In this document: positions 11,096-15,556 of the stretch, one piece after another | Layout: every line of letters begins with the position of its first letter | How positions within the stretch are numbered: position 1 is the first letter of the stretch | Assembly (NCBI GenBank): GCA_937922235.1 | Contig: CAKZVC010000059.1 | Location: 1 to 64,000, forward strand | From: an uncultured Acidimicrobiales bacterium | Lineage (GTDB): Bacteria > Actinomycetota > Acidimicrobiia > Acidimicrobiales > SHLQ01 | DNA length: 64,000 nt | Direction of reading: 5' to 3' | Notes under the pieces: generated by a model | Databases searched by the model: none | What the model was told of the DNA's origin: nothing | Seen by the model: only the letters and a program-made list of their open reading frames with translations | Position numbers and translations under genes: made by a program

Positions 11096-11815
11096 CTAAC
11101 TGGTCTTTGCGACCAATCGGCCGCAGTCAACGCACGGCTCGAGCGTTCCGGCGGGCAGATGCTTCCAGCGGTCGAGCTCGACGGCCGACATCGCCACGGG
11201 GCAACCGCCGTTGTGCGCTGGGTCGAATTCGACGACCGCATCTGGGCCGTACGTAATGCGCATCTTCCGGTAGAGCTCGAGGTTGTCTGGGTCGATGTCG
11301 CCTGCAGCGGTTTCCCGCTCGGCCTCGAGCTTCGCTATCTCGGCATCCAACTCGGCCGCATTTGCGTCGAGCGAGCTCTGCTGTTCGCCGCGCTTAGCCT
11401 CAAGTTCACCCTTTGCCGCCTCGGCCTGTACGAGCTGTTCGTCGAGCGGTTCGATCTCGAGCAGCAGCTCGATCGCCTGGGTCTCAAAGTCGCTTTGGCG
11501 AGCTTTGAGTCCGGTGATTTCGTCGCCGAGTGCAGTTGCTTCCTTCGGGCTCGTGACCGACCCGTCGTAGAGCTTGGCCTCAAGGCTGGCCGCCTTGGCC
11601 TCGACATCGGAGGCGTCGGTTTCGATGCTGCGCTGCTTGGTCCGGAGCTCGTCTCGAGCCGCCTCCGTAGTGGCCCGGGCCTTGTCGAGCGTGGCGAGCT
11701 CGGCATCGATCTCGGCGATTGCGGCGCGCTCAGGTAGATGCTCGTGTTTGAAGCGAAGCTGGTCGAGCGTGTTGTCGTGGCGTTGGACGGTCAGCAGTGC
11801 CACAAGTTCCGACAT
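11096..11815 (-). CDS. C4-type zinc-ribbon coiled-coil protein (DUF164/CT398-like)
   Basis: This 239-residue protein has an extended, charged coiled coil of about 170 residues (alternating Glu/Lys/Ala heptads). A C-terminal zinc ribbon follows, with a Cys in GGCPVAMS and a paired C-x-x-C in EPCVDCGRLV. This is the architecture of the DUF164 family found throughout Actinobacteria and in Chlamydia CT398, where links to secretion or RNA processing have been suggested. The role here is unknown. It precedes the small membrane protein gene in a compact unit. Confidence 0.85.
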   Translation of the reverse strand: MSELVALLTVQRHDNTLDQLRFKHEHLPERAAIAEIDAELATLDKARATTEAARDELRTKQRSIETDASDVEAKAASLEAKLYDGSVTSPKEATALGDEITGLKARQSDFETQAIELLLEIEPLDEQLVQAEAAKGELEAKRGEQQSSLDANAAELDAEIAKLEAERETAAGDIDPDNLELYRKMRITYGPDAVVEFDPAHNGGCPVAMSAVELDRWKHLPAGTLEPCVDCGRLVAKTS

Positions 11816-11897: not shown

Positions 11898-14348
11898 CTA
11901 CGGCGCGTTGGTGGATTCCGGCGCGGCTGTCGTCTCTGGAGCGGCCGTTGTTTCGGGTGCGGCCGTGGTCTCCGGAGCTGCTGTTGTTTCCGGTGCAGCG
12001 GTCGTTTCGGGAGCGGCCGTCGAGTCAGTAGTCGTATCGGTTGGCTCGGTTGTCTCGGTCGGAGCGACCGTTGTTTCTCCCTCGACTGTCGACGAGGTTT
12101 CTCCATCGACCACGCTCGACGTTGTCGTGTTCGGGTCGATCGCATTGGCCGGACGGATTCGAGCTACGCATCGATCTTTCTGGCCGTCGCCATCGCGGTC
12201 GACTGCCACCAACAAGGCCGGGCACGAACCGTTGTAGGCAACGCCACCGAGGTTGCGGCACCAGTCGACGTCGCCGTCGCCGTCTTGATCGACCTCAGCG
12301 TTTTGACCACCACATGGGCTGATGCGAACCACTTCAGGTTCCTCAAGGTCTGCGTCGGTCTTCAAGCGCACGGGTTGGCGTCGTGACCGGTCGGGCTCGA
12401 TGAAGTCGATGACCGGGAGACCAGCCATGTAGTCGTTCATGAACCGGCCCCACACGATTGCGGGCAGCGAACCGCCGGTGACGCCGGCATCGGCAAACTC
12501 ACCAAACGCCTGCACGTAGTCGGCCCGGATTTGGTCGGGATCGCGGCGGTCGTAGCGCATGGCGACCTGGCCTTCTTGGCCGCCGATCCACACGGCGGTT
12601 GCGAGCTGTGGGGTGTAGCCAACGAACCAGGCGTCGTAGTTGGACTGACCGGTTCCGGTCTTGCCGGCCGCACGGTGGCCCGAAACCTGAGCTCGTCGGC
12701 CAGTGCAGGCCTTCGGGCAGCTGACGTTCTTCTCGAGCACGTCGGTGACGAGGCGGGCGGTCTGTGGACGCACGGCACGGAACGGCTTGGGGTCGTGCTG
12801 GATGATTGTCTTGCCGCCCTGGTCGATGCGGGTGATGAGGTGCGGGTCGACTCGGATGCCGTCGTTGGCAAAGGTGGCGTAGGCGTTGGCCATTTCGAGA
12901 GGGGTGACGTCGTACACGCCGAGCGGCAACGCAAGAACCGGCTGGATCTCGGACTCGATGCCGAGCGCCTTGGCGGTGTCGACCACGTTGTTGAGGCCAA
13001 CGTTCTGGCTCAGACGGAGGTAGCCGCAGTTCGTCGAGCGGAGGGTGTGGTCTTCGATGCTGAGCGCACCACTTCGGCGTCCGCCGTTGTAATCGCCTGC
13101 TTCGTATGGGTTCGGAATACCGCCCGGGTTAGCGAACTCACATGGTGAACTGGCGTTGATGCTGTCGGTTGGGAGCAGGCCAGCGGTTTCAAACGCAGCG
13201 GCGAGCACGAACGGCTTAAACGATGAACCGGTAGGGCGACCCTTCTGGGTGGTCACGTTGAATTCGAACTCGTCGAAGCCTGGGCCACCGATCATTGCCC
13301 GGACGGCACCGCTACCAGGCTCAACCGACACGAGACCAGCGATGATCTTCAGGTTGTTGCGAGGGAACTCGGTGGCAACAGCGTTCTCGGCGAGGGCCTG
13401 AGCCACAGGGTCAAACGTGGTGTACACCTCAAGGCCGCCCTGGAAGACCTTGTTGATGCGGTCGGCGCGGGTCTCGCCAAGGCGTTCGTCGTCGAGCAGG
13501 CGACGCTTCACTTCCTCGACAAAGTAGGTGTCGAGGAACTGCGTGGTGTCGAGCTGGCGGTAACGAGGAAGTTCGCTGCGTTCCCAGATGCGACGCTCTT
13601 CCTCGTCGATGAACCCTTCAACCTGCAGTCGGCCAAGCGCGGTGCTGCGTCGGTTGAGTGCGTTGGTTGGACGGTAGACGGGGTCGTAAAGGCTTGGGTT
13701 GGAGATCACGCCAGCGAGCAGTGCCGCTTCGCCGTAGTTCAGTGAGCCTGCGTCCTTGTTGAAGTACAGCTCGGCTGCGGCCTGCACGCCGTAGGCGCCG
13801 CCACCGAAGTAGACCGCGTTGAGGTAACGCTCGAGGATCTCGTCCTTGGTCATCTGCTCTTCGAGACGCATTGCGATTGCAGCCTCAGGAAGCTTGCGGT
13901 CGAGGGTCTGCTCGCTCGTCAGAACACCGAGCTTGACGAGCTGCTGGGTGATCGTCGAACCACCCTGTTCAACGCCGCCCGCCGACACGTTCGTTACTGC
14001 GGCACGGGTGATCGCTGCAACGTTGACGCCCTTGTGCAGGTAGAACCGGTCGTCTTCTACGGACAGAACAGCCGAAACGACCTCAGGTGCGATCTGGTTG
14101 AGAGGGACATACTCACGGTCGATCTCGCCCTTGAGCTCGGCGATCAGCTGACCGTTGGCGTCGTAGATTGTCGTGGTCTGTTCGAGAATCGAAAGGTCGA
14201 CCTCGGTCGACACGGTCGTCTTCGCTCCCCACAAGTCGGAAAGCGACGGGGCGAGCGATGCAAGGGTGAACGCGAGCGCGCCACCGGCAACAGCCAAAAC
14301 AATGGCGAGCTGCATGACACTGAAAGCAGATCTGACGACAAGACGCAC
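11898..14348 (-). CDS. class A penicillin-binding protein (transglycosylase/transpeptidase)
   Basis: This bifunctional peptidoglycan synthase of 816 residues acts outside the membrane. A TM anchor lies near residues 12-30. The GT51 domain at about 70-250 has the catalytic Glu98 in SVEDDRFY and then QGGSTITQQL. The transpeptidase has S375-x-x-K378 (SSFK), S438-T-N and KTG at about 563. The C-terminus carries six near-identical TTAAPE repeats (11930-12020) after a Thr-rich linker. The frame continues upstream to 14594, but that part overlaps a hairpin RNA. GTG at 14348, giving fMRLVVRSAF just before the TM, is therefore the likely start; its SD is weak. Confidence 0.9.
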   Translation of the reverse strand: MRLVVRSAFSVMQLAIVLAVAGGALAFTLASLAPSLSDLWGAKTTVSTEVDLSILEQTTTIYDANGQLIAELKGEIDREYVPLNQIAPEVVSAVLSVEDDRFYLHKGVNVAAITRAAVTNVSAGGVEQGGSTITQQLVKLGVLTSEQTLDRKLPEAAIAMRLEEQMTKDEILERYLNAVYFGGGAYGVQAAAELYFNKDAGSLNYGEAALLAGVISNPSLYDPVYRPTNALNRRSTALGRLQVEGFIDEEERRIWERSELPRYRQLDTTQFLDTYFVEEVKRRLLDDERLGETRADRINKVFQGGLEVYTTFDPVAQALAENAVATEFPRNNLKIIAGLVSVEPGSGAVRAMIGGPGFDEFEFNVTTQKGRPTGSSFKPFVLAAAFETAGLLPTDSINASSPCEFANPGGIPNPYEAGDYNGGRRSGALSIEDHTLRSTNCGYLRLSQNVGLNNVVDTAKALGIESEIQPVLALPLGVYDVTPLEMANAYATFANDGIRVDPHLITRIDQGGKTIIQHDPKPFRAVRPQTARLVTDVLEKNVSCPKACTGRRAQVSGHRAAGKTGTGQSNYDAWFVGYTPQLATAVWIGGQEGQVAMRYDRRDPDQIRADYVQAFGEFADAGVTGGSLPAIVWGRFMNDYMAGLPVIDFIEPDRSRRQPVRLKTDADLEEPEVVRISPCGGQNAEVDQDGDGDVDWCRNLGGVAYNGSCPALLVAVDRDGDGQKDRCVARIRPANAIDPNTTTSSVVDGETSSTVEGETTVAPTETTEPTDTTTDSTAAPETTAAPETTAAPETTAAPETTAAPETTAAPESTNAP
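11920..12030 (-). repeat. 18-bp tandem repeats encoding (ETTAAP)n at the PBP C-terminus
   Basis: About six tandem 18-bp units, each encoding Glu-Thr-Thr-Ala-Ala-Pro, form the extreme C-terminus of the penicillin-binding protein. The copies differ mainly at synonymous third positions. Such in-frame low-complexity arrays commonly vary in number between strains and make flexible wall-spanning linkers. Confidence 0.85.
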
Positions 14349-14409
14349 AGCGATCAACCTAGTCGCCCGTTGTGGCCACGAGGCGTCACGCCAAGCCCGA
14401 AAAGGTAAA

Positions 14410-14516
14410 AATGAAAAACCCCGCCGAAGGGGGGAAACGGCGGGGTTCTTCGAAAGCCGTGTTTCTTGGGGGAAAGACTCACAGCGAGCGACGACTTTGC
14501 GTCGCTTCTTGGCATC
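14410..14516 (-). ncRNA. candidate 6C-type small RNA with intrinsic terminator
   Basis: On the minus strand a TACAAT -10 box (14517-14522) is followed by about 100 nt with two C-rich-loop hairpins. The first has stem UCUU/AAGA around a loop with five C (about 14465-14485). The second is a perfect 10-bp stem AACCCCGCCG/CGGCGGGGTT with six C in its loop (14417-14447) and runs into a short U-tract. Two hairpins with C-rich loops, the last acting as terminator, match the known actinobacterial 6C RNA (B11 in mycobacteria). The first loop has only five C, so the match is not perfect. The RNA lies in the gap before the PBP gene. Confidence 0.55.
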
Positions 14517-14581
14517 ATTGTACGCGAGCTCGTCATCCAAATGGGGTGCAGCTTTTGTGACGTCAGACACCGGAGAAGCCT

Positions 14582-15556
14582 GTGAAATCACCAAAGTTGG
14601 GGTCTGAGCGTTACTCAGGACCTCATCCGATCACGTGGCTGATGCTGTGCATCACAGCACTCGTGCTGTCGGCGTGCACCAGCGGTTCGAGCAATTCGGT
14701 TTTGCCCGCTGACGAACCCGATTCGCAGTCATCGAGCGAAGCCACGAACGATGGCGATTCGACCCCGATCAGCGACAGCCAGGCGGCTGCGATCTCACCG
14801 CCGGGAGACAGCCTTCCGATCACCATCACGCGAATCAGCGATGGCGACAGCGTTCGTGCGGACAGTGCCGAGGGCGACCTCGAAATTCGCCTGCTCGGCA
14901 TCAACGCTCCCGAACAAGATGAGTGTTTTGGTAGCGAGGCCAAGGCCGAGCTCGAACGGCTGCTCAACAGCGAAGACGTTCGCGTATCGCCATGGCCGCC
15001 CGAACGGGACGACTTCGGCCGCGAGCTCGGGTTCCTTATCGCCGATGGCATCTTTGTCAACTTGTCGCTCGTCGAGACAGGACACGTCGTTGCGAGGGCG
15101 CAAAGCGACCACGGGTTTGATCGAGAGTTTGAAGAAGCCGAACAGAAGGCGTCGGCCGCAGGTGTTGGTCTCTGGGCTCGCGATGCGTGCGGCACCCCGA
15201 CCGATGCTCAGCTCGTCATCGTCGAAGTCTTCGAGAACGCACCTGGCGATGACCGCGAGAACCCGAATGGCGAATATGTCGTCATCGAGAACGTTGGTGA
15301 CAACGCAGTCGACCTGAGCGAATGGGCGATCCGGGACGAGTCGACTCGCCACCGCCATACGTTCTCGTCGATCGAAATCGGGCCCGGCGACCAGGTTCGC
15401 TTGCGCACCGGATGCGGGAACAACGACCTGGGAAGTGACCCGATGGAAGTGTTCTGGTGCGACCCCGAGCCACCGGTATGGAACAACGGTGGAGACACGG
15501 CCTTTTTGCTTGACCCGAACGGTGCAATTGCCGACAACTTCGTAGTAGCTGGATAA
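14582..15556 (+). CDS. secreted lipoprotein: staphylococcal-nuclease-like domain plus lamin-tail domain
   Basis: This is a 324-residue exported lipoprotein with lipobox VLSAC (Cys32). After a Ser-rich linker, a thermonuclease-type SNase domain spans about residues 79-200: ITRISDGDSVR, the active-site Arg in RLLGINAPE, and EAKAELERLL. It probably cleaves nucleic acid phosphodiesters outside the cell. A lamin-tail (LTD) domain follows at about 208-320 (VIVEVFENAPG, then YVVIENVGDNAVDLSEW). It starts at GTG 14582 with GGAG 6 nt upstream. The gene is divergent from the PBP. Nutrient acquisition from extracellular DNA is a plausible role. Confidence 0.85.
   Translation: MKSPKLGSERYSGPHPITWLMLCITALVLSACTSGSSNSVLPADEPDSQSSSEATNDGDSTPISDSQAAAISPPGDSLPITITRISDGDSVRADSAEGDLEIRLLGINAPEQDECFGSEAKAELERLLNSEDVRVSPWPPERDDFGRELGFLIADGIFVNLSLVETGHVVARAQSDHGFDREFEEAEQKASAAGVGLWARDACGTPTDAQLVIVEVFENAPGDDRENPNGEYVVIENVGDNAVDLSEWAIRDESTRHRHTFSSIEIGPGDQVRLRTGCGNNDLGSDPMEVFWCDPEPPVWNNGGDTAFLLDPNGAIADNFVVAG

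Follow-up and report, generated by a model that had tools for sequence, protein, structure and literature searches.

The window, the whole 64,000-nucleotide stretch of Acidimicrobiales DNA analyzed here, probably carries a free-standing gene for a trans-acting small RNA of the 6C type, about 110 nt long and presumably under CRP-type control, with the gene for a class A penicillin-binding protein (PBP) as its neighbour. Judged from the sequence, the hairpins of this locus look like a real, conserved small-regulatory-RNA gene of the 6C type, which most likely works like 6C and, being a borderline member by strict tests, is treated here as a variant. The conserved structure, the promoter elements, the genomic position, the helical phasing of an upstream dyad and the PBP gene's own -10 box were all obtained by computation.

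All elements of the small-RNA locus lie on the minus strand. The TACAAT box described in the earlier note is present ahead of the hairpins at 14522-14517 (feature 14517..14522), with a transcription start predicted near 14510. Three hairpins follow downstream of the box, namely P0 (14487..14506; AGCGACG/CGTCGCT), identified by folding and compensatory changes, and P1 (14456..14485) and P2 (14413..14451), both identified by folding and covariation, with a C5 loop in P1 (C run 14472-14468) and a C6 loop in P2 (C run 14434-14429). P2 is the presumed intrinsic-terminator stem, and a T-rich tail (14400..14412) was read in the sequence 3′ of it. The two consecutive C-rich-loop hairpins (C5, C6) reported earlier are therefore present, and they recur in related genomes with compensatory changes; the count of two holds for the C-loop hairpins but is incomplete, as P0, located between the box and P1, had been missed. 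Two consecutive stem-loops with C-run loops are a 6C feature, while the first loop, with five C, falls short of at least six C per loop. C-runs of 5–7 were observed in both loops of all 12 sequences checked. With -47.5 kcal/mol, the locus folds more stably than every one of 200 dinucleotide shuffles, which average -27.4 kcal/mol (sd 3.5; z = -5.8). The consensus promoter scan of 14000-15000 did not report the TACAAT promoter, a -35-like hexamer being absent, and the consensus terminator scan of the same interval, limited to loops of 8 nt, did not list P2, which has its stem and T-rich tail but a loop of 11 nt.

The position of the RNA directly upstream of the PBP gene (11898..14348, minus strand; Pfam PF00912 Transgly and PF00905 Transpeptidase), on the same strand, was confirmed. 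The five closest named relatives of this PBP are from Acidimicrobiales MAGs, which places the locus in Actinomycetota, as for 6C RNAs. A PBP orthologue (E <1e-199) was found in 15 of the 19 family genomes searched, and 14 of these 15 carry the RNA upstream of it, with eight from g1, the genus of the window, four from g4, and one each from g5 and g6. The RNA is farther from the PBP gene in g5 and g6, with one gene between them, which is of PNPOx type by Pfam in g6 and similar by eye in g5. In the remaining genome, G012, the RNA was not found in the available PBP flank. G006 is nearly the same as G008 (99.6% identity over 230 nt), and the contig of G007 ends 142 nt after the RNA. TANNNT stands at the same place in all eight PBP-linked g1 loci, and also in the dyad-bearing loci of g4, g6, f56, f17 and f54.

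Beyond this family, the RNA was located just upstream of a PBP gene in two genomes of the family f17 (G034 and G122), whereas the next gene after it in the family f56, with the same orientation, is CT398-like (by Pfam in L069), and a homologue of that gene follows the PBP gene in the window (11099-11815, Pfam). A 6C–PBP pairing as an order-wide rule was rejected, as none of the 27 best-scoring PBP relatives from other families had such an RNA within about 1.3 kb upstream, some of these flanks being cut by contig ends; G122, which does carry the RNA, lies outside those 27. More C-loop RNAs occur at other loci of the order. Double C-loop 6C-like RNAs near a divergent LysR-type regulator gene were seen at L015:1501-1571, L064:1501-1597 and L071:1501-1611, in three families (f17, f23 and f52), with MurT (L064) and an HAD-acyltransferase (L015) downstream on the same strand. 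G008 and G006 harbor a second 6C-like RNA at another locus (L013:1501-1587 and L014:1501-1586; 36.5 and 37.2 bits), and the L013 copy has no dyad.

Covariation was counted in alignment A4, which holds 14 sequences of g1, g4, g5 and g6 and was built with a model trained on nine g1 sequences; six of the 14 lie outside the training set, and the alignment, being fitted to the model structure, leans towards it. The MAFFT alignment A1 was excluded from the counts because P1 of g4 was misaligned in it. In A4, 89% of the cells are paired, and double-sided changes were observed in 26 of the 31 pairs and in 91 cells, compared with 15.9 pairs and 29.2 cells (sd 4.8) in shuffles, and with at most 11 pairs and 19 cells when the structure was slid along the alignment. 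By hairpin, compensatory changes affect four of the six pairs of the P0 main helix (81% of cells paired), while all ten pairs of P1 and 11 of the 14 pairs of P2 are changed on both sides in some sequence. A comparison independent of any alignment, in which the arms were swapped between species, gave average energies of -14.6 (native) vs -8.9 kcal/mol (swapped) for P1 and -28.2 vs -17.8 kcal/mol for P2, with up to seven of 22 swaps as good as native in single species. The loops keep five to seven Cs while the surrounding stems change, which fits the C-runs being the functional part. The same position in related genomes together with the compensatory changes shows that the locus is more than a chance arrangement.

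The identification as 6C RNA made in the earlier note stands on architecture, conservation and the top 6C match of the genome, and is weakened by the score. The full-length covariance-model match to Rfam RF01066 (14409..14488, minus strand) reached 36.3 bits (E 0.0023 in the 341 bases searched), and the window copy therefore did not attain the expected score above threshold, the gathering cut-off being 47. Among all Rfam families, 6C has the highest bit score at the locus, followed by Scr3202 (34.6 bits vs a cut-off of 52; E 0.002) and, more weakly, by ar14 (25.7 bits) and anti-hemB (18.6). The score below the Rfam cut-off, the C5 run in P1 and the slight lead of Scr3202 by E-value (0.002 vs 0.0023) speak against the 6C-type reading. 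With gathering cut-offs applied, Rfam finds three tRNAs in the window and nothing else. Within its genome, the window copy ranks first for 6C (E 0.007), ahead of a match of 19.3 bits, among the 150 of 439 first-look candidates that were scored.

The wider survey, in which searches of more than 40 genomes used stricter filters that lose weak matches, gave 6C matches at E <=1 in 11 of 59 genomes (the relatives and the window's own), one of which, the syntenic copy of G003 from the same genus, is the only one to pass the cut-off (47.5 bits), and matches at E <=0.01 in 37 of 396 genomes drawn from the phylum, 19 of which pass. One genus of 6–10 Mb genomes in the phylum straddles the cut-off, from 51.5 to 43.4 bits (46.0 in G602), and the 6C RNA of the control genome Corynebacterium glutamicum was found below it; this RNA was seen on Northern blots according to the available part of the report (PMC4046766). 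Since 6C copies of that genus and of C. glutamicum also miss the cut-off, its being missed here carries little weight, and the Rfam 6C cut-off overlooks such copies. Conversely, the weak 6C score alone would not carry the claim, because at E <=10 a 6C match is obtained in 14 control genomes, three of them from outside the actinobacteria.

C-rich-loop small RNAs arose in other phyla as well, and it is conceivable, though unlikely, that a C-loop small RNA with 6C-like function arose independently in Acidimicrobiales. Such an origin would agree with the score below the Rfam cut-off, with the weak matches to the other C-loop families named above, and with the further C-loop RNAs at other loci of the order. 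It would also agree with the genomic neighbours, which in the window are the PBP gene and a gene encoding an SNase and lamin-tail domain protein, and which differ from the mycobacterial and Streptomyces 6C locus, placed near the Ms1/6S RNA gene in the accessible portion of PMC6582537. Against it, 6C gives the top bit score and a full-length match, the one syntenic copy of G003 passes the cut-off, and an extra hairpin 5′ of the two C-loop hairpins was predicted, by our own reading of the folds, in 15 of the 16 6C loci of the phylum that were folded.

Upstream of the small RNA, a CRP/GlxR-like dyad, GTGTCTGACGTCAC (GTGNC-N4-GNCAC; 14557..14570, minus strand), lies 48 nt upstream of the -10 box, counted from first base to first base. 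The half-site of the CRP/GlxR consensus is TGTGA. GTGTCTGACGTCAC contains the GTG-N8-CAC core of such a site, while TGTGA is not present on both sides, since the right half, TCACA, matches and the left, GGTGT, does not. Of 27 6C-like loci examined in the order, 19 have the dyad upstream, with 0.155 expected from shuffles, the 19 loci not being independent and representing six lineages. The -10 box in this set was taken as a TANNNT located between -40 and +10 nt relative to the model start, and the dyad stands at a distance of 48 or 49 nt from it in g1, g4 and g6, 47 in f56, 38 in f17 and 58 in f54; these shifts equal one helical turn, as would hold for an activator that must face the polymerase. 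Among the eight loci without it, L034 (g5) has ATG for GTG, L071 has GTGAACACGTTCAC, which is the core without the inner C/G, and the six others have none.

The set of 27 comprises eight loci of g1, four of g4, one of g5, one of g6, L011, L013, L015 and ten of the 20 loci L063-L082, these ten being kept for two C-run hairpins visible by eye, sometimes weakly. Left out were L065, L066, L067, L072, L073, L075, L076, L077, L079 and L082, as well as L010, L012, L016, L017 and L002, and also L004 and L014 as near-copies of L005 and L013. Eleven further loci were fetched after the dyad had been noticed, and five of them carry it (three of f56 at 47 nt and two of f17 at 38 nt). These five are among the six later loci with two C-runs, and have the expected spacing; L186 is the sixth, without a dyad, and the others lacking it have one C-run (L185, L192) or none (L182, L189, L191). 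The later loci are partly kin to one another or to the first set, as L183 is identical over 228 nt to L080, which was already in it, L184 is 90% identical to L080, and L187 and L188 are 94% identical. The spacing rule, kept in five of the six later two-C-run loci including the one identical to an earlier locus, provides a specific and testable promoter hypothesis. As a 6C feature of the whole phylum, the dyad was rejected, for it is absent within 170 nt upstream of all 30 6C loci examined elsewhere in the phylum, in two of which (L100 and L106) a bare GTG-N8-CAC core lies 158 and 120 nt upstream. A narrower form of the dyad, GTGNCNNANGTCAC, is not enriched genome-wide, with five matches vs five for the backward control.

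In the window, only 11 nt separate the dyad from the start codon of a divergent gene for an SNase and lamin-tail domain protein (14582..15556, plus strand; ORF, Pfam PF00565 and PF00932), and the dyad could also serve that gene. That it serves this gene or another regulator and not the small RNA is improbable; the short distance to the SNase start codon in the window is in its favor, but in f56, f17 and f54 as well the dyad stays at a constant distance from the -10 box of the small RNA, or at one shifted by a helical turn. The start of the SNase/lamin-tail protein appeared lipoprotein-like by eye.

A candidate for the protein that would bind the dyad is the best CRP-type protein of the genome, which has 219 aa and is of the conserved CRP/FNR type. 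Its nearest solved relatives are 3mzh and 3d0s (about 5.5e-34), both annotated as probable CRP/FNR-family regulators, and 4byy and 4cyd (about 9e-33); we take the first two to be the CRP of M. tuberculosis and the latter two to be GlxR of C. glutamicum. The alignment extends through the recognition helix (ASRERVNKA vs ASRETVNKA). The gene of this protein (C23:262-918) starts with ATG at C23:262, and a dyad, GTGGCTCATGTCAC, is present at C23:233-246, directly before a TAGTAT box. In one CRP-family gene (L055:233-264), which seems to be leaderless, TAGTAT ends 9 nt before the ATG with the dyad immediately upstream. The dyad was found just upstream of the CRP-type gene in all eight g1 genomes examined, a count without G001 and G005 (gene split between contigs) and without G007, which gave no match, and a GTTACACATGTCAC-like variant of the GTTAC type was found in all four g4 genomes. 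In the window genome, this dyad overlaps the start of a divergent ORF, so its conservation may be partly coding. A dyad at the CRP gene as a feature of the whole order was rejected, since among the 17 other loci, beyond g1 and g4, only L165 has a match (83 nt upstream), with bare cores in L164 and L174.

These sites suggest autoregulation by the same CRP-type protein in g1. We further propose, tentatively and as a possibility rather than a probability, that a CRP/GlxR-type global regulator directly activates the 6C-type RNA of Acidimicrobiales by way of the helically phased dyad, that in the window's genus it controls its own gene as well through the same dyad, and that the CRP-to-6C connection is an old axis of Actinomycetota. 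The age of the axis would follow from the dyad of Acidimicrobiales together with the 6C RNA of C. glutamicum, which the available parts of two reports place in the network of GlxR, a CRP-type regulator (PMC4046766, PMC6582537). If true, the axis would pass carbon or energy status to translation through C-loop pairing.

The earlier note had also raised the possibility that the RNA acts as a leader of the PBP gene whose terminator must be read through, a proposal that was not borne out. The start codon of the PBP gene was placed at GTG 14348-14346 by comparison with orthologues, and the gene has a -10 box of its own, TAGGTT (14356..14361, minus strand), 7 nt before it. Fifteen PBP genes were tested, 14 of the family and that of G034 from another family, and in 14 of them a TANNNT box ends 6–8 nt ahead of the start codon, the exception being G034; the G012 gene (L038) was excluded for its unclear start codon. 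When the same test was slid upstream by 10 to 40 nt, each of seven positions gave the box in zero or one of the 15 genes. In thirteen of the 15, none of the cores GGAG, GAGG, AGGA and GGGG occurs within the 18 nt before the start. From the box 6–8 nt before the start in 14 genes, PBP probably has a leaderless mRNA that is made from a separate promoter and begins downstream of the 6C terminator.

Transcription starting at TACAAT with conditional read-through of P2, by which the element would be a cis-acting leader or attenuator of PBP, is accordingly very improbable, even though RNA and PBP gene share a strand, their order is kept in two families, and in the window no stop codon interrupts the frame of PBP within the element (ORF 11898-14594). 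Besides the PBP gene's own box, the gap between the two is not conserved, as 74 to 274 nt lie between the second C-run and the start of PBP in g1 and g4 and 836 nt in g6 (L034 and L035, in which a later C-run was picked, are omitted). Another gene intervenes in g6, and by eye in g5, the RNA is upstream in none of the 27 best-scoring PBP relatives of other families, and in f56 it precedes the CT398-like gene instead. A coding extension of PBP through the element is disfavored by the covariation and the variable gap. Although P2 alone is a good terminator stem, it is highly improbable that the locus just terminates transcription strongly, that its other hairpins are incidental and that it does not act as a small RNA, given the conserved promoter, the covarying P0 and P1 upstream of P2, and the C-runs kept in both loops of every sequence checked.

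Two side observations were made around the PBP gene. A run of TTAAPE-like repeats occupies the C-terminus of the protein in the window (11898-12010, minus strand). In g4–g6, a conserved GC-rich hairpin, GGCGCGCCCAGGG ... GGGG ... GTGGGCGCGCC, was seen by eye between the 6C RNA and the PBP gene in both orientations (L032, L034, L036 and L037, and reversed in L033 and L035), with no Rfam match in the five loci scanned (L032, L034, L035, L036 and L037).

For the free-standing 6C-type RNA, we infer how it is transcribed and terminated, how it pairs with targets, and whether CRP binds and in which direction it regulates, as follows. RNA polymerase would start about 7 nt after TACAAT, transcribe P0, P1 and P2, and stop at P2. 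The exposed C5 and C6 loops would then pair with G-runs, mainly in the ribosome-binding regions of mRNAs encoded elsewhere in the genome, and the pairing would lower the translation or stability of the target mRNAs, an effect that has been reported for 6C/B11 of mycobacteria. Transcription is probably activated by a CRP/GlxR-type protein bound to the dyad, about 53 bp upstream of the start. The downstream PBP gene would be a stable neighbour, expressed from a promoter of its own as a leaderless mRNA.

Work on 6C RNAs covers mycobacteria, corynebacteria and Streptomyces. In the literature searched, which excluded most subscription journals, we found no report of a 6C RNA in Acidimicrobiales, and none linking 6C RNA with Crp or with a position upstream of a penicillin-binding protein gene. 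The present locus would extend the 6C kind to uncultured actinobacteria of the Acidimicrobiales, for which no published report was found, and the phased CRP-like dyad is the part that a specialist may find new. The RNA is described as widespread in Actinobacteria in the consulted part of one report (PMC9569102), its loops as "typically" having six C in another (PMC4046766, in part), and the mycobacterial form as having three helices and two C-rich loops in the accessible text of a third (PMC6582537). For B11 of M. marinum, the C-run of loop 3, located in the terminator, is given as the seed, and repression came back, though less strongly, when this terminator loop carried compensatory mutations (PMC12395582, available in part). 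B11 of M. abscessus represses a reporter whose 5′ UTR contains a G6 tract, for which either C-loop suffices (PMC10470900, available in part).

Compared with these systems, so far as the accessible descriptions go, the window locus shares with 6C RF01066/B11 the three hairpins, of which the last two have C-run loops and the last is the terminator (presumed here), the length of about 100 nt and the -10-like box upstream. It differs in its score below the cut-off, the C5 of its first loop, its PBP and SNase neighbours, and the CRP-like dyad, which none of the 30 6C loci examined in the phylum has within 170 nt upstream. With the 6C RNA of C. glutamicum, it has in common the reported GlxR-network link and a score below the Rfam cut-off, whereas the two C-runs of that RNA are both C8 according to the available part of PMC4046766, against C5 and C6 in the window. 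Scr3202 (RF02833), a small RNA of Streptomyces, has similar C-loop hairpins and came second in bits and first in E-value; however, the window lies 17 bits below its cut-off, and the second stem of its model is longer (10 + 9 pairs), with an outer part that is unformed here.
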